DNA of 64,000 nucleotides, from assembly GCF_007176755.1 (NCBI RefSeq), contig NZ_BJTV01000001.1, positions 744,001 through 808,000 of the forward strand, given 5' to 3'. The position numbers were made by a program, and so were the translations under genes. Position 1 is the first letter of the stretch, and each line of letters begins with the position of its first letter. This document shows, piece after piece, positions 11,195-21,300 of the stretch. The DNA comes from Streptomyces sp. 1-11 (GTDB taxonomy: Bacteria > Actinomycetota > Actinomycetes > Streptomycetales > Streptomycetaceae). Below the pieces are notes generated by a model. The model saw only the letters and a program-made list of their open reading frames with translations. It did not search any database and had not been told where the DNA came from.

Positions 11195-11280
11195 CGGGGC
11201 CCGCGTGGCAGAGCCCGGCATTCGGCCCGTTCGCGTCCGAGCCGACCGGCGCCGCGCGGGAGCCGGTCGGCAAGCCCCTG

Positions 11281-12043: not shown

Positions 12044-12532
12044 ATGGCCGACTCCAGTTTCGACATCGTCTCGAAGGTCGAGCGGCAGGAGGTCGACAAC
12101 GCCCTCAACCAGGCCGCCAAGGAGATCTCGCAGCGCTACGACTTCAAGGGCGTGGGTGCCTCGATCTCGTGGTCCGGCGAGAAGATCCTGATGGAGGCGA
12201 ACTCCGAGGACCGGGTGAACGCCATCCTCGACGTCTTCCAGTCCAAGCTGATCAAGCGCGGCATCTCGCTGAAGGCCCTGGACGCGGGTGAGCCGCAGCT
12301 CTCCGGCAAGGAGTACAAGATCTTCGCGACGATCGAGGAGGGCATCTCCCAGGAGAACGCCAAGAAGGTCGCCAAGATCATCCGTGACGAGGGCCCGAAG
12401 GGCGTCAAGGCGCAGGTCCAGGGCGACGAGCTGCGGGTCAGCTCCAAGAGCCGCGACGACCTGCAGACGGTGATCGCCCTCCTGAAGGGCAAGGACTTCG
12501 ACTTCGCGCTGCAGTTCGTCAACTATCGGTAG
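12044..12532 (+). CDS. YajQ family nucleotide-binding protein
   Basis: 162 aa, full length for the YajQ/UPF0234 family: two RRM-like halves. The N-terminus [20 protein letters not shown], the central [12 protein letters not shown] and the C-terminal [12 protein letters not shown] are family hallmarks. YajQ homologues bind nucleic acid or cyclic di-GMP in some bacteria; the ligand here is unknown. The start is the ATG after AAGGAG. A strong palindromic terminator follows. Confidence 0.95.
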
Positions 12533-12560
12533 GACGAAGGCACGGTCCGGCGCCGGTCAC

Positions 12561-12604
12561 GCGCAGGAAGGGTGGGCACCGGCCGGTGCCCACCCTTCCT
12601 GCGC
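12561..12604. terminator. perfect 44-nt palindromic terminator
   Basis: Two perfect 22-nt arms beginning GCGCAGGAAGGGTGGGCACC, with no spacer, between the convergent yajQ and YeaQ/YmgE-type genes. It serves both directions. Confidence 0.85.
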
Positions 12605-12637
12605 CCGGTCGCTCCCTGGCGGCCCGCCGCGCCCGGC

Positions 12638-12904
12638 TCAGTCGCGCGAGTTGCCGAACAGGATGCGGTAGACGATCAGCAGGACCAGTGAGCCGCCGAT
12701 CGCGGCGGCCCAGGTCGCGCCGTCGTAGAAGTGCTTGCTGATCGGATGGTCCAGCCAGCGGGACGAGATGTAGCCGCCGATGAACGCGCCGGCTATGCCG
12801 ATGAGGGTCGTGCCGATGAAGCCGCCCGGGTCGCGGCCCGGAAGCAGGACCTTGGCGATGGCTCCGGCCAGAAGCCCCAGGATGATCCAACCGATGATGC
12901 TCAT
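12638..12904 (-). CDS. GlsB/YeaQ/YmgE family membrane protein
   Basis: 88 aa with three hydrophobic helices and the glycine-rich family pattern: MSIIGWIILGLLAGAIAK at the N-terminus, then PGGFIGTTLIGIAGAFIGGY and a third helix near GGSLVLLIVYRILFG. The family is annotated as transglycosylase-associated or stress-related, but its biochemical function is not settled. The ATG lies after a GGCAGGTTCACGGC region with a weak Shine-Dalgarno. Confidence 0.9.
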   Translation of the reverse strand: MSIIGWIILGLLAGAIAKVLLPGRDPGGFIGTTLIGIAGAFIGGYISSRWLDHPISKHFYDGATWAAAIGGSLVLLIVYRILFGNSRD

Positions 12905-13058
12905 GCCGTGAACCTGCCCTCCCGCGCTGTGTCCGCACTCTTGGACCCCTGAGAATCCGGTGAGGATCGGCTGTCGACGCGCGCGTGTTCGTGCCGTGTC
13001 GATGAAGAGGACGCCTCGAGTCCATCCGCCGGTTGCGGCGATCAGTAGGGTGCCGCTC

Positions 13059-14312
13059 ATGACAGGTTCCGGCACCGCGCTGCGGCGCACCCTGGGCGTA
13101 CGGGACGCCGTGGTCGTCGGCCTCGGCGCGATGCTCGGGGCGGGCGTGTTCTCCGCCCTGGGCCCGGCCGCCCGTGCCGCCGGGCGGGGGCTGCTGCCCG
13201 GGCTGGCCGTCGCGGCCGTGGTGGCCTACTGCAACGCGATGTCCTCGGCCCGGCTGGCCGCCCGCCATCCGGCGTCGGGCGGGACGTACGTGTACGGCAG
13301 GGAGCGGCTGGGCGAGTTCTGGGGGTATCTGGCCGGCTGGGCGTTCGTGGTCGGCAAGACGGCCTCCTGCGCGGCCATGGCGCTCACCGTGGGGGCGTAC
13401 GTGTGGCCGGGGCAGGCGCACGCGGTGGCGGTGGCGGCCGTGGTGGCACTGACCGCCGTGAACTACGGCGGCATCCAGAAGTCGGCGTGGCTGACGCGGG
13501 TGATCGTCGCCGTGGTGCTGGCGGTCCTCGCCGCCGTGGTGGTCGCCTGCCTCACCTCCGGGCGCCTGGACGCGGGGCGGCTCGGTCCCGGTGCCGCGAC
13601 CGGGTTCGGCGGGGTGCTCCAGGCGGCCGGCCTGCTGTTCTTCGCGTTCGCCGGGTACGCGCGGATCGCCACGCTCGGCGAGGAGGTGCGGGATCCGGCG
13701 CGCACCATTCCGCGGGCCGTTCCGCTGGCTCTCGGTATCACCCTCGTGGTGTACGCGGCGGTCGCGGTGGCCGTTCTCGGTGTGCTCGGGGCCGGCCGTC
13801 TGGGGCAGGCGACGGCGCCGCTGGCCGACGCGGTGCGCGTGGCCGGGGTGCCGGGGCTCGTGCCGGTGGTCCGGATGGGGGCCGCGGTGGCCGCGCTGGG
13901 GTCGCTGCTCGCGCTGGTGCTCGGGGTGTCCCGGACGACGCTCGCCATGGCCCGCGACGGCCATCTCCCCCGTGTGCTGGCCGCCGTGCACCCACGGTTC
14001 CAGGTGCCGCACCGGGCCGAACTGGCTGTGGGCGCGGTCGTCGCCGTGCTCGCCGCCACGGTGGACGTACGCGGCGCGATCGGTTTCTCCTCGTTCGGCG
14101 TCCTGGCCTACTACGCCGTCGCCAACGCCTCGGCCTGGACGCTGAGCCCGGCCCCGCGGGCCCGGGTGGTGCCGGTGATCGGTCTGGCGGGCTGCGCCGC
14201 ACTGGCCTTCGCCCTGCCGCCGGCCTCGGTCGCCACGGGGACGGGCGTACTCGCCGTGGGCGTGCTGGCCTACGGCGCACGCCGGTGGTGGGCGAGCCGC
14301 GACCACGCCTGA
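13059..14312 (+). CDS. APC superfamily amino acid permease
   Basis: 417 aa with about 11-12 transmembrane segments. The N-terminal TM1 carries the APC substrate-binding glycines (VVVGLGAMLGAGVFSALG), and TM6 has FFAFAGYARIATLGEE followed by DPARTIPRA, the classic loop of amino acid/cation transporters. Probably imports or exchanges an amino acid or polyamine; substrate unknown. ATG 13059 is preferred over the upstream in-frame Met because the conserved fold starts shortly after it. The 3' end falls in a short GACCACGACCG-type repeat. Confidence 0.85.
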   Translation: MTGSGTALRRTLGVRDAVVVGLGAMLGAGVFSALGPAARAAGRGLLPGLAVAAVVAYCNAMSSARLAARHPASGGTYVYGRERLGEFWGYLAGWAFVVGKTASCAAMALTVGAYVWPGQAHAVAVAAVVALTAVNYGGIQKSAWLTRVIVAVVLAVLAAVVVACLTSGRLDAGRLGPGAATGFGGVLQAAGLLFFAFAGYARIATLGEEVRDPARTIPRAVPLALGITLVVYAAVAVAVLGVLGAGRLGQATAPLADAVRVAGVPGLVPVVRMGAAVAALGSLLALVLGVSRTTLAMARDGHLPRVLAAVHPRFQVPHRAELAVGAVVAVLAATVDVRGAIGFSSFGVLAYYAVANASAWTLSPAPRARVVPVIGLAGCAALAFALPPASVATGTGVLAVGVLAYGARRWWASRDHA

Positions 14313-14587: not shown

Positions 14588-15838
14588 TCAGCCCTCGACC
14601 AGGTGTTCCTCGGCGGAAGCCGAGGGCCGGGGCGGGGTGGTGGGCAGGGCCGGGAGGCGGACGGCGCACATCAGCAGTCCGGGTACGACGGTGATGGCCA
14701 CCATGACCAGCACCGTCGTCGTGTAGCGCTGGCCGGCGAGGAGCGGGCCCGCGACCAGTGAGCCGAGGGGGATGGCGCCCAGCATCAGGGTCCGCATCAG
14801 GGTCATGGTGCGGGCGAGGAGCGCCGGTGGCGTCCGGGCGTAGCGGACCACCTGGGAGGAGACCGTGGCGAGGGCGCAGCCGACTCCGAAGACGAGCTGG
14901 CCGGCCAGGATCGCGGGCAGGTGGCCGCCGAGGAACAGCAGTAGGCCGGTGCCGGCGAGGAGCTGGCAGGTGCCGATGCGCAGCATCGGCCGGGCCGAGG
15001 CGTCGAGGGTGCCGCCGGCGAACGAGCCGAGCAGTTCGGCCGCGGCGAGGCCGGCCACCAGCAGGCCGAGGACGCCGGCGCCGTCCCGGAGCCGGTCGTG
15101 GGCCAGCCACGGCTGCATCACCATCAGCATGCCGGCGGCGGTGTTGAGCGCGCTGAACGCGATGGTGATGACCAGCAGGGCCCGGTCCCTGAGCACCAGC
15201 CGGACGACCGGCAGCCAACTGCTGCGGGATCCCTCGGCGGCGGTGCCGGACGGCCGGGGCAGCGGGTGGTCCATCCGCAGCACGAACAGCGGGAAGGCGA
15301 GGAAGGTGGCCGCGTCCAGCACGAGCACGGCCTGCGCGCCGAGCAGCGGGATCAGCGCGCCGCCGATCGCCGGACCGGTGAGGCTGGCCACGCCCTGGGC
15401 GATCGTCTCCAGAGCGGTGCCGGTGGCCAGCCGGTCCTGCGGGACGAGTTCGGGGACGACGGCGGGGGTGATGGCGATCGGGAGGATCTTGAACAGGCCG
15501 CAGACGGCGGCGGCCGCGTAGAGCTGCCAGAGGTGGAACAGCCCGCTGAGCGCGAGGAGCGGAACGGCTCCCATGGCGACGCCCCGGCACAGCGAGTCGA
15601 CGATGAGCAGCGCCCGGCGGGAGAAGCGGTCCACGACCGCGCCGCCCAGCACCCCGCCGACCAGGATGGGCGCGGTGTAGCACAGCCCGAGCAGGGAGAG
15701 CGAGGCCGCGCCGCCGTGTGTGACGGCGAGCCAGGCCATCGCGGTCCAGCTCGCCCCGTCGCCGAGCAGGCTCAGCGTGGAGCCGGTCCACAGCCGCCGG
15801 AAGTCGGCGATCCGCAGCACGTCGAGGTACTTCCGCAT
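14588..15838 (-). CDS. MFS exporter, EntS-like (putative peptide product exporter)
   Basis: 416 aa with 12 predicted transmembrane helices. The N-terminus LRIADFRRLWTGSTLSLLGD is typical of the enterobactin/macrolide-exporter type MFS group, with GGAVVDRFSRRALLI in loop 2. AGGAGG precedes the ATG by about 5 nt. It is the last gene of the minus-strand pentapeptide/P450 island, 92 nt after the oxygenase, so it may be read from the same transcript. I infer it exports the finished peptide product; the family alone would allow other substrates. Confidence 0.85.
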   Translation of the reverse strand: MRKYLDVLRIADFRRLWTGSTLSLLGDGASWTAMAWLAVTHGGAASLSLLGLCYTAPILVGGVLGGAVVDRFSRRALLIVDSLCRGVAMGAVPLLALSGLFHLWQLYAAAAVCGLFKILPIAITPAVVPELVPQDRLATGTALETIAQGVASLTGPAIGGALIPLLGAQAVLVLDAATFLAFPLFVLRMDHPLPRPSGTAAEGSRSSWLPVVRLVLRDRALLVITIAFSALNTAAGMLMVMQPWLAHDRLRDGAGVLGLLVAGLAAAELLGSFAGGTLDASARPMLRIGTCQLLAGTGLLLFLGGHLPAILAGQLVFGVGCALATVSSQVVRYARTPPALLARTMTLMRTLMLGAIPLGSLVAGPLLAGQRYTTTVLVMVAITVVPGLLMCAVRLPALPTTPPRPSASAEEHLVEG

Positions 15839-15930: not shown

Positions 15931-16917
15931 TCAACTCGGTTCTACTGATTCGGAGTTGACGGCCAGTTCCCGTACCTCGCGGCCGACACGGGTACGCAGC
16001 ACTACGCCGGCCCGAGGACCGTCGAGAAGCTGGAGGGTCCGCTCCTGGCTCCAGCCCGCGAAGCGGAACTCCGCGTCGGCGATGTGGACGAGGGGGAAGC
16101 TCTGGTCGGGGGCGACGCGCAGCTCGACTCCGCCGGACGTGACGGCGATCTCGGCCTGGACGCGCTCCGGGGCGTCCGGGAACTCCCCCTCCTCCTCCCA
16201 GTCGGCGAAGGGCGGCGGCACCTGGAAGCGGCGCGCCAGCCGGCTCGGGTCGCCGGCGTAAGGGGTCTCGGGCCGGTTGAGCAGCACCTCGCCGTGGGCG
16301 AAGTACTCCTGCCACCCGGCGGGGAACACCGCCGCCAGCTCCGGCACCGTCAGGCAGTCGACGACCATGTGCACGCGGGACGCGGAACCGGTGTTCTCCA
16401 CCTTGTGCATCCGGGAGAAGTCGCCGAACCAGAACTCGCCGTGCTGCCACCTGTGCGTCACCCCGTCGAGCACCAGGGTGGCCTCGTGGTGGGTGGTGAT
16501 GGGCACGTGCAGGCGGGCGACGCCCCAGGCCGGGCCGTACTTGGTGTCGTTGTGCACGTCGCTCACCGCGCCCGGGCCGAGGGCCATCAGCCGGACCGCG
16601 CGCAGCGGCGCCGGAACGGCGGCGAGCACCTCGCGCAGGTACGGGGTGCGGGCCAGCCATTCCGTGTCCGCGCACTCCTGGCTGCCCGGCCCGCCCGGGT
16701 CGGTGCGGGAGGGGTCGCCGCCGGGGCTGCGCAGCGGCAGGATGCGCCAGTCGACCTCCGCCTGGGCGCCCACCCCGTCCCCGAAGTACCGCTGCAATTT
16801 CCACTGGTGTGTGCGGACGGCGTCGAGGTCGGCCAGGAGCCTCGCGGGGTCGAAGCCGGCCGCGAGCCGTGCCGCCTCCGCGGGCATCGTGGGGGCGGCG
16901 TTGTCGGTCACGGTCAT
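15931..16917 (-). CDS. aspartyl/asparaginyl beta-hydroxylase-family 2OG-Fe(II) oxygenase
   Basis: 328 aa. The cupin-type Asp/Asn hydroxylase core lies at about residues 105-190. The first iron ligand His is in GAVSDVHND (residue 122), the second in SRMHKVENTGSASRVH (His171), and Arg181 is the expected 2-oxoglutarate-binding Arg. ARLHVPITTHHEATLV matches the strand between them. The C-terminal 130 residues are not recognised. The ATG overlaps the peptidase stop (ATGA), so the two are translationally coupled. In this setting it may hydroxylate the modified pentapeptide, for example beta to Tyr or Ala, but no substrate can be read from sequence. Confidence 0.85.
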   Translation of the reverse strand: MTVTDNAAPTMPAEAARLAAGFDPARLLADLDAVRTHQWKLQRYFGDGVGAQAEVDWRILPLRSPGGDPSRTDPGGPGSQECADTEWLARTPYLREVLAAVPAPLRAVRLMALGPGAVSDVHNDTKYGPAWGVARLHVPITTHHEATLVLDGVTHRWQHGEFWFGDFSRMHKVENTGSASRVHMVVDCLTVPELAAVFPAGWQEYFAHGEVLLNRPETPYAGDPSRLARRFQVPPPFADWEEEGEFPDAPERVQAEIAVTSGGVELRVAPDQSFPLVHIADAEFRFAGWSQERTLQLLDGPRAGVVLRTRVGREVRELAVNSESVEPS

Positions 16918-18752
16918 GCGGTGCCTCCGGATGGGTGCGGGCTGATAGGCCACACGTGCTTGCGGGCGAACCCGACGGTGGCGGCGATCTGCCGGATCCG
17001 CTCCCCGGCGACGAGGGAGCCGTGGCCCGCGTCGTAGCGGTAGACCTCGTGTTCCAGGCCGAGGTCGGCGATGCGTGCGATGTAGTTGTCGATCTGCCGG
17101 ATGGGGCAGCGGGGGTCGTTCTCCCCGGCGATGATCATCAGGGGGGCGGTGACCCGGTCGGCGTAGGTGAGCGGGGAGGAGGCCCGGTAGCGCTCCGGGA
17201 CCTCGTCGGGCGAGCCGCCGAACAGGGAGCGGTCGTAGGCCCGCAGTTCCTCCATCTCGTCCTCGTAGGCCGCCAGGTAGTCGGCCACCGGCATGGCGGC
17301 GATGCCGACCGCCCAGTTCGCGGGGCGGGTGCCGAGGCCGAGCAGCGTGAGGTAGCCGCCCCAGGAGCGTCCGGTCAGGACCAGGTGGCGGGGGTCGGCG
17401 AGTCCGGAGGCCACGGCCCAGTCGCGGACGGCTTCGACGTCCTCCAGCTCGGTCAGTCCGGGGCGCCCCTCGATGGCGTCCCGCCACTGGGCGCCGTATC
17501 CGGTGGAGCCGCGGTAGTTGACCTGCACCACGGCGAAACCGTGGTCGACCCAGGCCGCGACGGAGGGGTCGAAGATGTCGGCGTCGAAGCCGATGGGACC
17601 GCCGTGCACCTCGAAGACGCAGACGCCCGGCGCGGTCCAGCCGGGCGGCCGGGACACCAGGGCGTGCACCGGGCCGCCGGGACCGTCCACCCACACGTCC
17701 TCCACCGGTACCGAGGGCGGGCAGGGCGGTCCGGGCGGGCTCAGTACGACACCGGTACCGGTGGAGCGCACCACGGGTGGCGCCGCCGCCGAGGACCAGG
17801 CGTACTCGACGGTCCCGTCCGGGCGCACCGTGGCGGCGTCCGCGATCCGGTCGAGCGGGACCCCGATGGAGCCCGGTGGCGTGGGGATCCGGGTGAGCTC
17901 CTCCGACCGCAGGTCGTAGCGGTACAGCTCGTCGCGGGCGTGGCGGGTGTGCGAGACGAGGAGGGCGGAGCCGTCCGGGTACCAGTCGGCGGCCGTCTCC
18001 CCCGGCAGGTCGAGGGTGATCTCCCGGACCTCGCCGGTGCGCACGTCCCACAGCAGGGGTTCGGCGCGGCCGCGGCGCTCGTGCTCCACCAGCAGGCGGC
18101 CGTCCCCGGCGGCGGGCCCGAACGCGCAGGCGGTCAGCCCGAGGCCGGGGCCGTCGTGGAGGTCGGCGACCGTGGTCCCGTCGGTGCGCAGCACGCGGAG
18201 CGCGGGGTGGCGGCTGTCGCCGTGCTCGCCGTGGGCGACGGCGATGAGGGTGCCGTCGTGGGACAGCGCGGCCACCCGGGCGTCCGCCTGGTGCGTGTAC
18301 ACGGGCACGGGTTCGGCGCCGGGGCGGCAGACGTGGACCGAGCTGCCGTCCGCGCCGGCGCGGCCGACGACGGCCAGCCCGTCGGCGCCGAGGGCGAGGC
18401 CGGCGGGGTAGGCCGGCTCCAGGGTGGTGGCGGGCTCGTCGGGGCCGCCGTCGAACGGCTGGCGCATCCACACCCCGAACTCGCCGCCGTCACGGTCGGC
18501 GAACCACCAGATCCAGGCGCCCGAGGGGTCGACCGCGCCCGTCCAGGTGCCGTGCGGACGCCGGGTGACCTGGCGGTGCGTGCCGGCGGCCCGGTCCCAG
18601 GCGTACAGCTCCCAGGTGCCTGAGGCGTTGGACCGGTACAGGCAGCGGTCCGGGGCGTCGCGGGCCCAGCGGGGCAGGGTGACGCGCGGTGCGCGGACCC
18701 GGGCCTGCCAGCGGTCCTCGCCCGGCTGAGCCGTGGGTGGCGTGCCGGTCAC
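16914..18752 (-). CDS. S9 family peptidase (prolyl oligopeptidase/acylaminoacyl-peptidase type)
   Basis: 612 aa: an N-terminal seven-bladed propeller-like region (about 1-360, with repeats such as YPDGSALLVSHT and SHDGTLIAVAHG) and a C-terminal alpha/beta hydrolase. The triad is visible: Ser463 in GRSWGGY, Asp546 in AGENDPRCP and His577 in DAGHGS. No signal peptide, so cytoplasmic. The start is the GTG overlapping the P450 stop (GTGA). Propeller-gated S9 enzymes accept only short peptides, which fits a five-residue precursor; I infer that it removes Met-Arg or releases the modified tripeptide. Confidence 0.88.
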   Translation of the reverse strand: MTGTPPTAQPGEDRWQARVRAPRVTLPRWARDAPDRCLYRSNASGTWELYAWDRAAGTHRQVTRRPHGTWTGAVDPSGAWIWWFADRDGGEFGVWMRQPFDGGPDEPATTLEPAYPAGLALGADGLAVVGRAGADGSSVHVCRPGAEPVPVYTHQADARVAALSHDGTLIAVAHGEHGDSRHPALRVLRTDGTTVADLHDGPGLGLTACAFGPAAGDGRLLVEHERRGRAEPLLWDVRTGEVREITLDLPGETAADWYPDGSALLVSHTRHARDELYRYDLRSEELTRIPTPPGSIGVPLDRIADAATVRPDGTVEYAWSSAAAPPVVRSTGTGVVLSPPGPPCPPSVPVEDVWVDGPGGPVHALVSRPPGWTAPGVCVFEVHGGPIGFDADIFDPSVAAWVDHGFAVVQVNYRGSTGYGAQWRDAIEGRPGLTELEDVEAVRDWAVASGLADPRHLVLTGRSWGGYLTLLGLGTRPANWAVGIAAMPVADYLAAYEDEMEELRAYDRSLFGGSPDEVPERYRASSPLTYADRVTAPLMIIAGENDPRCPIRQIDNYIARIADLGLEHEVYRYDAGHGSLVAGERIRQIAATVGFARKHVWPISPHPSGGTA

Positions 18753-19912
18753 CGGATGACTTCCGCCGGGAGTTCGGCGAGCGTGCGGACGGTCGCCAGG
18801 CGCTTGTGCACGGCGGGCCCGGTCGGCCGGATCTCGATGCCGCGTTCGGCGAGCACGGTGAGCACTTCGCGCAGCAGCAGATGGGCGAGCATCGATCCGG
18901 TGCAGGCGTGGGCGCCGTATCCGAAGGAGAGGTGGTGATTGGCCTTCCGCCGGAAATCGAGTCGGTCGGGGTCGCTGAATTGTGCCGGGTCGCGGTTGGC
19001 CGCGGCGAAAAGCATCAGCATTCCCTGGCCGCGCCGCACCTTGACTCCGGAGAATTCGGTGTCGGCGACCGCGAGCCGGGTGGTGCCCTGGATGGGGGCC
19101 TCGAACCGGAAGAATTCGTGCGGCGCCCTTTCCAGGGTTTCCGTGCTGTCGAAAAGGGCTTTCGGCGGCGTTTCGAGCCGGGCGAGGGCGTTCAGCGCGT
19201 TTCCGAGCGAGGCGGGAACCGCGGTGAATCCGTTGACGACCAGGGTGCGCAGCGAGTTCATGGTGAGCTGGTGCGGGACGCCCGCCGCGTCGGCCCGGTC
19301 GACCAGGTCCCTGACGGGTTCTCCGGCGGACATGCCGGCGACCCAGCCGTCGATGAGGGCGGCCAGTTTGCGCTGGGCGGCGACGCCGGGCTCGCGGGTC
19401 TCGGGCACCAGCCCGGAGTCCATGGCGCGGGTGATCGCCTCGGCCACCGGCCGGATCTCGTCGAGGTCGAACTGCGGCAGCCCGACGGCCTCCGGGATGA
19501 ACCAGCGGGCGAGCGGTTCGGTGAAGGCGGTGATCAGGTTCACCGGGCCGGGCGGCAGCGCGTCGAGCCGGTCGGAGACGTGGGCCCTGACCCGGGCGGC
19601 CAGGGCGGGGGACGTCATGTCGCGCAGGGCGTCGGCGAGCACGCCGTAGATGGCCGTGTGCTCGGGCGGGTCGACCGTGTGGACGTCCAGGGCGGGCTCG
19701 GGCACGCTCTCGCCGGCCCGGCGCCAGTCGGCGGCGAAGCGCTCGTGGTCCAGGAGCACCCGCTTGCAGTCGTCGTAGGAGGTGAGGACCCAGCTGTCCA
19801 GCCGTTCGCTCCACAGCGGGGTGCCGGCCGCACGGAGTTCCGCGTACACCCGGTAGGGGTCGTCCAGGGTGGCCGGATCGAGGGGGTTGTACTCCGTGGT
19901 CAACTCAGGCAT
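18749..19912 (-). CDS. cytochrome P450, second of the pair
   Basis: 387-aa soluble P450. The heme-binding loop LSFGYGAHACTGS places the axial Cys at 337, the K-helix ExxR is EFFR and the following FEAPIQGTTR is normal. The I-helix reads NGFTAVPAS and lacks the usual acidic/Thr oxygen-activation pair, as in some crosslinking P450s. The N-terminal half is clearly paralogous to the neighbouring P450: both have YNPLDPAT, SERL(N/D)SWVLT and FAADWRRAG. Its ATG overlaps the first P450 by 8 nt. Probably acts on the Tyr residues of the MRYAY peptide. Confidence 0.92.
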   Translation of the reverse strand: MPELTTEYNPLDPATLDDPYRVYAELRAAGTPLWSERLDSWVLTSYDDCKRVLLDHERFAADWRRAGESVPEPALDVHTVDPPEHTAIYGVLADALRDMTSPALAARVRAHVSDRLDALPPGPVNLITAFTEPLARWFIPEAVGLPQFDLDEIRPVAEAITRAMDSGLVPETREPGVAAQRKLAALIDGWVAGMSAGEPVRDLVDRADAAGVPHQLTMNSLRTLVVNGFTAVPASLGNALNALARLETPPKALFDSTETLERAPHEFFRFEAPIQGTTRLAVADTEFSGVKVRRGQGMLMLFAAANRDPAQFSDPDRLDFRRKANHHLSFGYGAHACTGSMLAHLLLREVLTVLAERGIEIRPTGPAVHKRLATVRTLAELPAEVIR

Positions 19913-21080
19913 GGACGTCGCTCCCAGCGGGTCGGAGGGTGACGGGAAGTGTGTCGGGGTAGCGGAGGGTGGCCCGGGGGGCGCGGGTCGGGGCGGCGGC
20001 GAGCCGCATCGGCGCCGGCGCCTTGAGCAGGGCGGCCACCAGGGCCCGGATGATGAGGCGGGCCAGGATCGCCCCGGAGCAGGCGTGCGGGCCCCAGCCG
20101 AGCGACAGGTGCCGGTTGGGCGTCCGGTCGAGGACGAGGGCGTCCGGGTCGGGGAAGCGCTCGGGGTCGCGGTTGGCGGCGGCGAACAGCGCGAGCACGA
20201 TCTGGCCGCGCTCGATCACGGCGCCGCCGATCTCGGTGCGTGTCACGCAGGCGCGGCTCGTGCCCTGCACCGGGCCGTCGTAGCGCAGGAGTTCGTCGAC
20301 GCCGGTCGCGAGCAGCGCGGGATCACGCATGCGTTCGAGCGCCTCGGGGTGCTCCAGCAGGGCGAGGACGGCGTTGGCCGCGGCGCCCACGGTGGTGCTG
20401 AAGCCGGCGAGGAACAGCACCCGGACGCTGTTCCACACCGCCTCCTCGGTGACGCCGGCCGGTGCGGCGCCGGCCAGGACCTCGCGCAGCAGGCCCGGGC
20501 GGGGCGCGGCGGTGTGCCAGGAGGCGATGAGGTCGTTGATCTGCCGGCGGGCGGCGAGGGCCGGTTCGAGCACCTCGGGCAGGAGGCCGGCGTCCATGCC
20601 GCGCACGAGCGCGTCGGACTGGGCGGCGAACGAGGAGACCGGCGGCTCGGCGACGCCGAGGAGGCGGCAGACCGCGGACAGCGCGACGGGCCGGGCCACT
20701 TCGGCGGTGAAGTCGAACGACGGCCGGTCTGCGCATCGTTCGAGCGCGGCGATCGCCTCGGCGGCCGCGCGCTCGCCGATGGCGTCGAGGTCCTGGTCGC
20801 GGAAGGCGGTGGTGAACAGGCGGCGCAGCGGGGTGTGGTCCGGCGGGTCGAGCTCCTGCATGCTGGCGACGGAGGCGGGGCCGTCGTCGTGCCCGGCGCG
20901 GCGCCAGTCCGCCGCGAACGTCTCGGTCTCGGCGAGCACACGGTGGCAGTCGGCGTAGCGGGTCAGCACCCAGGAGTTCAGCCGTTCGCTGAAGAAGACG
21001 GGTGCGCTCTCGCGGAGTCGGCGGTACACCGGGTGGGGGTCCGCCACGGTCGCCGGGTCGAGGGGGTTGTATCCGTCCAT
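19905..21080 (-). CDS. cytochrome P450, first of the pair
   Basis: 391-aa soluble P450. Heme loop LSLGWGPHACSGA (Cys334), K-helix ELLR and the following YDGPVQGTSRA. The I-helix is AGFSTT, with Ser in place of the usual acidic residue but Thr kept. It is the first gene after the pentapeptide gene, whose stop is 111 nt upstream, with a perfect hairpin in the gap. No good Shine-Dalgarno precedes the ATG. Reported biarylitide P450s (BytO type) crosslink aromatic side chains of an MRYxx pentapeptide, and rufomycin RufO nitrates the Tyr of such a peptide; this enzyme is a candidate for either chemistry. Confidence 0.92.
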   Translation of the reverse strand: MDGYNPLDPATVADPHPVYRRLRESAPVFFSERLNSWVLTRYADCHRVLAETETFAADWRRAGHDDGPASVASMQELDPPDHTPLRRLFTTAFRDQDLDAIGERAAAEAIAALERCADRPSFDFTAEVARPVALSAVCRLLGVAEPPVSSFAAQSDALVRGMDAGLLPEVLEPALAARRQINDLIASWHTAAPRPGLLREVLAGAAPAGVTEEAVWNSVRVLFLAGFSTTVGAAANAVLALLEHPEALERMRDPALLATGVDELLRYDGPVQGTSRACVTRTEIGGAVIERGQIVLALFAAANRDPERFPDPDALVLDRTPNRHLSLGWGPHACSGAILARLIIRALVAALLKAPAPMRLAAAPTRAPRATLRYPDTLPVTLRPAGSDVHA

Positions 21081-21147
21081 GCCGTGGCCCCATCAATTCG
21101 TTTGACATAGCAGGTGGGTAATGCGTGTCGCCGGCTTCCGGCAGAGC

Positions 21148-21180
21148 GGCGGCCCGGGTCGTTTAATGACCCGGGCCGCC
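21148..21180 (-). terminator. perfect hairpin between pentapeptide gene and P450 genes
   Basis: Two exact 13-nt arms (GGCGGCCCGGGTC/GACCCGGGCCGCC) with a 7-nt loop, starting 11 nt after the pentapeptide stop codon. There is no T-run, so it may be an attenuator or an mRNA-stabilising structure that keeps the precursor message in excess over the enzyme messages, rather than a full terminator. Confidence 0.75.
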
Positions 21181-21191
21181 GTCACGTCTTA

Positions 21192-21209
21192 TCAGTAGGC
21201 GTAGCGCAT
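21192..21209 (-). CDS. RiPP precursor pentapeptide Met-Arg-Tyr-Ala-Tyr
   Basis: Eighteen bases: ATG CGC TAC GCC TAC TGA, followed at once by a second in-frame stop TAA. A near-ideal Shine-Dalgarno GGAGGTG ends 5 nt before the ATG, and a promoter with 17-nt spacing lies about 60 nt upstream, so this is expressed as a gene and not as a chance frame. The sequence fits the MRYxx pattern of biarylitide precursors (MRYYH in the described byt system), with Ala and Tyr in the last two places. Tyr3 and Tyr5 are the likely sites for aryl crosslinking or other P450 oxidation, and Met-Arg would be a two-residue leader. Two P450s, a short-peptide protease, a 2OG oxygenase and an exporter follow on the same strand. 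Confidence 0.85.
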   Translation of the reverse strand: MRYAY

Positions 21210-21214
21210 GGCGG

Positions 21215-21221
21215 CACCTCC
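21215..21221 (-). promoter_or_regulatory. Shine-Dalgarno of the pentapeptide gene
   Basis: GGAGGTG on the minus strand, spaced 5 nt from ATG. It is the best ribosome-binding site in the island and decides the call of this 18-nt gene. Confidence 0.88.
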
Positions 21222-21271: not shown

Positions 21272-21300
21272 AATGTAGGTAGCCGGCATGGCCTCGTCAA
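21272..21300 (-). promoter_or_regulatory. promoter of the pentapeptide/P450 operon
   Basis: On the minus strand TTGACG (21295-21300) and TACATT (21272-21277) are separated by exactly 17 nt, close to the housekeeping sigma consensus. Transcription would start near 21265, giving a 5' leader of about 55 nt before the pentapeptide ATG. Confidence 0.8.

Follow-up and report, generated by a model that had tools for sequence, protein, structure and literature searches.

The precursor genes of biarylitides are the smallest known, and a locus is assigned to this type when an 18-nt gene encoding MxYxY or MxYxH lies close to a cytochrome P450 (P450) gene, usually at no more than 500 bp. The closest described system is that of Streptomyces lydicamycinicus NBRC 110027, in which the pentapeptide MRYAY is the native substrate of the P450 SlyP, which joins Tyr3 to Tyr5 by a carbon-carbon (C-C) cross-link in vitro and tolerates Trp and Leu at position 4 (PMC13417212, 2026). 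SlyP, a C-C former, carries Leu224 at the position of H234 (PMC12951456), and in P450Blt the change H234L, together with A231V or E238N, gives better conversion of a Tyr-X-Tyr peptide (PMC10929621). The present analysis concerns a stretch of 64,000 nucleotides (nt) from Streptomyces sp. 1-11 (contig NZ_BJTV01000001.1, positions 744,001 to 808,000; hereafter the window), in which an 18-nt gene for MRYAY is followed by a stem-loop and by two tandem P450 genes, here called P450a and P450b. As MRYAY and its cross-link are already published as a biarylitide precursor and its product (PMC13417212), novelty of the precursor itself was rejected. The second P450 and the stem-loop, as constant features of such loci, are points absent from the first-pass annotation of this DNA.

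A pentapeptide gene conserved before a pair of P450 genes

It can be proposed with good confidence that the 18-base MRYAY gene, which stands before the P450 pair at eight loci (at two of them as MRYDY), encodes a biarylitide-type precursor; the first P450 is predicted to link Tyr3 with Tyr5 through a C-C bond. The core of the locus comprises the following features.

21272..21300, minus strand: promoter-like TTGACG-17-TACATT (consensus scan), the -10 ending 62 nt 5' of the ATG
21215..21221, minus strand: Shine-Dalgarno sequence GGAGGTG (direct reading), 5 nt 5' of the MRYAY ATG
21192..21209, minus strand: 18-nt precursor gene, MRYAY, ATG CGC TAC GCC TAC TGA (direct reading; conservation in eight loci)
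21147..21181, minus strand: G+C-rich stem-loop, 14 bp with a 7-nt loop, beginning at the 11th nt after the MRYAY stop
19905..21080, minus strand: P450a, 391 amino acids, likely Tyr3-Tyr5 cross-linking biarylitide P450 (SlyP-type, Leu224)
18749..19912, minus strand: P450b, 387 amino acids, second biarylitide-family P450, its start overlapping the end of P450a; likely second oxidation

On the minus strand the gene reads GGAGGTG-CCGCC-ATGCGCTACGCCTACTGATAA, the ATG beginning at 21209 and the TGA finishing at 21192, and a further in-frame stop, TAA, follows immediately at 21191-21189. The first-pass annotation had described an 18-nt MRYAY gene with GGAGGTG 5 nt before its ATG, a TTGACG-17-TACATT promoter upstream and P450 genes downstream on the same strand. 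The direct reading agrees exactly with the first of these, the promoter is present as a promoter-like site with 9 of 12 consensus matches (mean 0.1 in shuffles), and the P450 genes are two. The promoter-like site is retained in the Streptomyces bungoensis locus, and a consensus scan gave no match of this type in four of the other six loci; the two Kitasatospora loci carry a weak TTGCGA-17-GATAGT in its place.

A chance reading frame was rejected, as the pattern has no second copy in the window or in the genome and does not occur in shuffles or in the reversed control. Indeed, a Shine-Dalgarno sequence followed by ATG, an Arg or Ser codon and Tyr-x-Tyr-stop occurs once in the window and never in 100 shuffles, and ATG-MRN-TAY-NNN-TAY-stop has a single occurrence in the whole 7.85-Mb genome. 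The distance from the MRYAY stop to the start of P450a is 111 nt, within that usual for biarylitides.

Genome samples, each part of a larger group, comprised 392 genomes of the genus (own genome included) and 394 genomes in each of two wider samples (family and class). A search for MRYAY-type genes beside homologues of these P450s, as the first-pass annotation had suggested, was made in the genus with ATGCGNTAYGMNTAYTGA (M-R-Y-[A/D/E]-Y-TGA). It gave four matches in 4 of 392 genomes (reversed control, 0), all with their start codon 103-129 nt before the start of a P450 match; over the MRY[AD]Y loci this distance is 97-129 nt. Homologues of P450a at 60% identity or more occur only in the same 4 of 392 genomes, the next best being at 52%, and all five genomes of the family sample (of 394) in which P450b reaches at least 52% identity carry the pair. 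Other named carriers are S. sioyaensis and S. bungoensis (MRYAY) and Kitasatospora sp. Root107 (MRYDY); another MRYDY locus is G857. Counting repeat fetches once (L033=L128/L150; L112=L003/L126; L113=L004/L117/L124; L114=L005; L149=L127), there are eight distinct loci, six with MRYAY and two with MRYDY.

The P450a-P450b tandem is present in all eight, and each pair is preceded by MRYAY or MRYDY; the absence of MRYxx codons at this spot, which the first-pass annotation had named as fatal to its reading, was thus seen in none of them. The codons vary silently at Arg2 (CGC/CGT) and Ala4 (GCC/GCG/GCA), and the residue changes only at position 4, which is Ala or Asp (GAC); Tyr3 and Tyr5 are invariant, but the search pattern demanded those Tyr codons. 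The constant core of the eight loci is pentapeptide, stem-loop, P450a and P450b, followed by a tail that differs: the window and S. bungoensis have peptidase, hydroxylase and transporter (S9-AspH-MFS), four loci (L112, L032, L033, L149) have MFS-S9, and L113 and L114 carry an aldo/keto reductase.

The first P450

The closest solved sequences to P450a are, in order, an unnamed P450 (22yx), RufO and P450Blt. P450a keeps the equivalents of Gln84, Met172, Arg188 and Arg231, with which RufO binds its pentapeptide (the text of PMC12186263 prints Glu84, and the printed RufO chain has Gln there). The two RufO residues that bind His-5, His235 and Glu239, are replaced by Leu and Ser in 7 of the 7 loci compared (the eight without L149). 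The whole RufO network His235/Glu239/Asp169 corresponds to Leu/Ser/Val in P450a of the window and to Val/Thr/Thr in its P450b. At the H234 position P450a has Leu (residue 224) and P450b has Val (residue 226, window) or Ala, according to a motif search that matched the wrong place in G064_b and gave nothing for several homologues.

Both P450s belong to the BytO/P450Blt/RufO family by sequence and tree, and P450b also by fold, BytO itself being outside the comparison. In a tree of 58 chosen rows, including RufO, an MW-13 enzyme, MxYDH and MKYWH enzymes and four other P450s, P450a forms a clade (support 100/99) apart from that of P450b. P450a is thus, as its residues suggest, very likely a cross-linker of the SlyP type; since it shares Leu224 with SlyP, the published C-C link of MRYAY should apply to it. 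The first-pass annotation had read the gene as a biarylitide-type precursor with Tyr3 and Tyr5 as the reactive pair and the usual His absent. This reading gains from the conservation of codons with silent changes, from the strict linkage to a biarylitide-family P450, from the Leu/Ser found in place of the His-5-binding residues of RufO and from the published SlyP precedent (PMC13417212).

The second P450

The solved sequence nearest to P450b is that of P450Blt. Its AlphaFold2 model (pLDDT, the predicted local distance difference test score, of 93) has as nearest folds P450Blt without and with biarylitide (template modelling scores 0.88-0.91), then RufO. P450b is, on the sequences compared, under purifying selection, the ratio of nonsynonymous to synonymous substitution rates (dN/dS) being 0.17 between the window and S. 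bungoensis and 0.14 between G064 and S. sioyaensis. It retains the heme Cys, the ExxR motif, Met172 and Arg231; in 7 of 7 loci, His replaces Gln84 and either Gln or His replaces Arg188. A separate clade (100/100) unites seven P450b sequences with four database relatives. A Lentzea row joins G206 and G094 in the P450a clade and again in that of P450b, which is what joint inheritance of the pair would give. In Lentzea sp. NBRC 105346 the homologues of P450a, P450b and AspH each lie on a contig of 281,225 bases and therefore likely on one and the same contig.

The I-helix of P450b (residues 227-233) reads NGFTAVP or NAFTSLP, proline included, where AGxxT is usual, and in the model the helix is broken at residues 227-230. 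P450b has no precursor gene of its own at this locus. We infer that P450b is an active P450 whose substrate resembles the usual one but is altered, the cross-linked peptide being the simplest candidate, and that it likely adds a further oxidation. We therefore put forward, as a tentative proposal that falls a little short of an even chance, that P450a closes the Tyr3-Tyr5 C-C ring and that P450b, which has lost its own precursor and two contacts with the linear peptide, recognizes this ring and adds a second bond or a hydroxyl, leading to a doubly oxidized, perhaps bicyclic, tripeptide.

A second P450 was not seen in the 11 M[SG]YDH loci of the genus sample (4.1 kb each), which have one P450 apiece. 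Two further loci carry Tyr-x-Tyr pentapeptide genes, MRYIY (L119) and MRYFY (L122), with a single P450 about 40% like P450a. The MKYWH loci (L022-L031, L121, L130, L131) have, some 300 bp from their first P450, another that is divergently transcribed, 31-34% like P450a and, where measured, 26-28% like P450b.

The stem-loop

Each of the eight loci has a G+C-rich stem, 10-15 bp long, that begins at nt 8-11 past the pentapeptide stop. The folding z-score of the window stem-loop is -6.4 and its score is equalled or passed by 5 of 4000 random 60-mers (5 to 88 of 4000 at seven loci); no T-run is found at it. Among 30 pentapeptide sites, a stem score of at least 27 is reached by 7 of 7 MRYxY, 11 of 11 M[SG]YDH and the single MRYLH site, which sits more than 1 kb from its P450. 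The stem sequences vary between lineages. Between L113 and L114, of 15 pairs, three are changed on both sides and still pair, two are changed on one side, one is broken and nine are the same; stems are near-identical in the window and L035 (13 of 14 pairs the same) and in L112 and L032 (14 of 15). The stem-loop is likely a partial terminator or a 3' stabilizer favouring the precursor over the enzymes.

Putative tailoring genes and proposed pathway

Three genes follow P450b on the same strand.

16914..18752, minus strand: S9 prolyl-oligopeptidase-family serine peptidase, 612 amino acids (PF00326, 2e-39); its GTG start overlaps the P450b stop
15931..16917, minus strand: aspartyl/asparaginyl beta-hydroxylase-family oxygenase (AspH), 328 amino acids (PF05118, 2.5e-14, residues encoded by 15931-16854)
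14588..15838, minus strand: major facilitator superfamily (MFS) transporter, 416 amino acids (PF07690, 6e-27), likely product exporter

The ATG of AspH overlaps the S9 stop, so that the starts of P450b, S9 and AspH all overlap preceding stops. The gene beyond the MFS gene, an amino-acid permease gene (12912-14312, plus strand), is convergent and the cluster therefore likely ends at the MFS gene. Among the best 120 of 246 AspH homologues, 11 have a longest contig of the same size as that of a P450a homologue among the best 120 of 139. In L034 (Micromonospora sp. MW-13, the source of P450Blt) an MRYWH gene at 11204 lies 3' of a biarylitide-type P450, and near it a hydroxylase (12143-13039) is 48% like the window AspH.

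A precedent for leader removal is offered by ProTM32, a prolyl oligopeptidase (POP) from Streptomyces sp. TM32. In vitro, a leader-free mass arises with it from the cross-linked myxarylin intermediate and not from the linear one, and longer incubation degrades the product; POP genes adjoin several biarylitide-like clusters (PMC12951456). By analogy, the S9 peptidase likely removes the Met-Arg leader; AspH likely adds a further hydroxylation and the MFS protein likely exports the product. In the proposed pathway, transcription would start at the promoter-like site and the stem-loop would end or protect most transcripts, so that precursor would outnumber enzyme. P450a, predicted from its SlyP-type Leu224 and the published SlyP chemistry to cross-link Tyr3 and Tyr5 of MRYAY, would act before P450b, which would carry out the second oxidation on the cross-linked and not on the linear peptide. 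The S9 peptidase likely would cut the Arg2/Tyr3 bond, the Asp/Asn-hydroxylase-like enzyme may add a hydroxyl and the MFS protein would export the product.

Weighing the alternatives

Several points weigh against this two-step scheme or limit it. The placement of P450b beside P450a and the MxYDH enzymes is weakly supported (87/77); P450a is equated with SlyP from Leu224 and gene position, and neither P450 has the usual acid/alcohol pair in its I-helix. At the MRYIY and MRYFY loci no second P450 was found within about 1.5 kb at E 1e-40; as these show one P450, the pair is a mark of MRY[AD]Y loci and does not extend to every MxYxY. In the stretches examined, S9 occurs in 6 of 8 loci and was not found in 2, and AspH was not found in 6 of 8; leader cleavage and hydroxylation are therefore not universal steps. 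The biarylitides characterized so far have no dedicated protease in their clusters according to PMC12951456, a statement which, if it covers SlyP, would make the SlyP locus unlike that of the window. The AspH-containing sav cluster gave the plain cross-linked product only, the role of AspH being described as unclear (PMC13417212). As for the stem-loop, z-scores at the seven MRYxY sites range from -1.9 to -6.4, the control consisted of random 60-mers from the same loci, mostly coding, rather than of other intergenic gaps, and 2 of 10 MKYWH sites and 0 of 1 MRYWH sites reach a score of 27.

Non-catalytic partners derived from P450s exist. It is thus conceivable, if unlikely, that P450b is no peptide oxidizer and stabilizes P450a or its substrate, or acts on an unrelated molecule, as the replaced Arg188 and Gln84 and the unusual I-helix, with its proline and without AGxxT, would allow. 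The retained heme Cys, ExxR, Met172 and Arg231, the dN/dS of 0.14-0.17 and a fold closest to P450Blt, biarylitide complex included, argue for an enzyme. The TIGR04515 model scores below its cut-off for both P450a and P450b. It is improbable that the roles are swapped, with P450b making the cross-link and P450a the second step: P450Blt is nearest to P450b in sequence and fold, and the window P450b has at the H234 position a Val, as other C-C formers do (PMC12951456), but Leu224 is shared by SlyP and P450a, P450b having Val226 or Ala, and P450a adjoins the precursor and retains more peptide contacts.

The strong stem-loop that starts at nt 8-11 past the stop at each of the eight loci would also suit a regulatory leader peptide, whose translation controls the stem-loop and through it the operon without the peptide being a substrate. 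This is very improbable, since SlyP acts in vitro on MRYAY, used as a norleucine analogue (PMC13417212), P450a falls in a peptide-binding family, and position 4 varies (Ala/Asp) while Tyr3 and Tyr5 stay constant, though required by the search pattern. Production of nitrotyrosine, as by RufO, to which both P450s are related, hardly deserves consideration: the residues of the RufO His-5 network are absent from both, and nitration was rejected as the genome gave no match to nitric oxide (NO) synthase (PF02898), a family present in 2 of 14 control genomes. An atropopeptide was also rejected, the precursor having five residues and no Trp, and the KSLK leader and xWxxxx core of PMC11450843 being missing.

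Possible significance

As far as the literature was searched, the two-P450 subclass and the stem-loop seem to be new. The main text of PMC13417212 contains neither 'second P450' or 'two P450' nor 'stem-loop', this check covering the main text, and among the papers listed by the literature searches no biarylitide paper deals with either, PMC11450843, which mentions a second P450 for laurentirubin, concerning atropopeptides. If the proposed scheme is true, the published SlyP product would be merely an intermediate, and the MRY[AD]Y clusters would form a two-P450 subclass of biarylitides with a stem-loop of its own for each 18-nt gene. Biarylitides showed no activity in the assays of PMC13417212 or in the earlier ones that it cites, and related peptides give a mere hint of effects on plants. 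A possible reason is that the biarylitides isolated so far are intermediates; a subclass with an invariable second P450 would name the missing step. The P450 pair, MRY[AD]Y and the stem-loop together also provide a search rule for genes missed by annotation. Furthermore, arylomycin is related to Tyr-X-Tyr C-C rings, so that one more enzyme for their tailoring could prove useful in practice.

Comparison with known systems

Pentapeptide genes beside biarylitide-family P450s are diverse: the family and class samples include MSYRH (L125), MFYDH (L120) and MDYSH (L140), and in L129 and L134 one P450 is preceded by a pair of MRYLH genes that differ in their codons and are spaced by 70 and 94 nt.

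The SlyP system shares with the window an identical precursor, a biarylitide P450, Leu224 and the reactive pair Tyr3-Tyr5, but its account, as far as the main text of PMC13417212 goes, mentions neither a second P450 nor a stem-loop, SlyP being the one enzyme assayed. The P450Blt and myxarylin systems likewise combine a pentapeptide substrate with a biarylitide P450 (PMC10929621, PMC12951456); they differ by a Tyr-X-His core and a C-N link, no second P450 is mentioned in the parts of these papers available, and myxarylin has a methyltransferase. RufO of rufomycin belongs to the same P450 family and also acts on a pentapeptide, whose Tyr3 it nitrates, needing the NO for which the window genome has no synthase match (PMC12186263). 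The sav cluster of Saccharothrix variisporea (MRYVH) resembles the window as a biarylitide cluster with an Asp/Asn beta-hydroxylase but has a Tyr-Val-His core, an amidinotransferase and one P450 described (PMC13417212). Laurentirubin, an atropopeptide whose second P450 adds a bond and is just 28% identical to TryB, is like the scheme proposed for the window in that a single ribosomal peptide is modified by two P450s in succession (PMC11450843).
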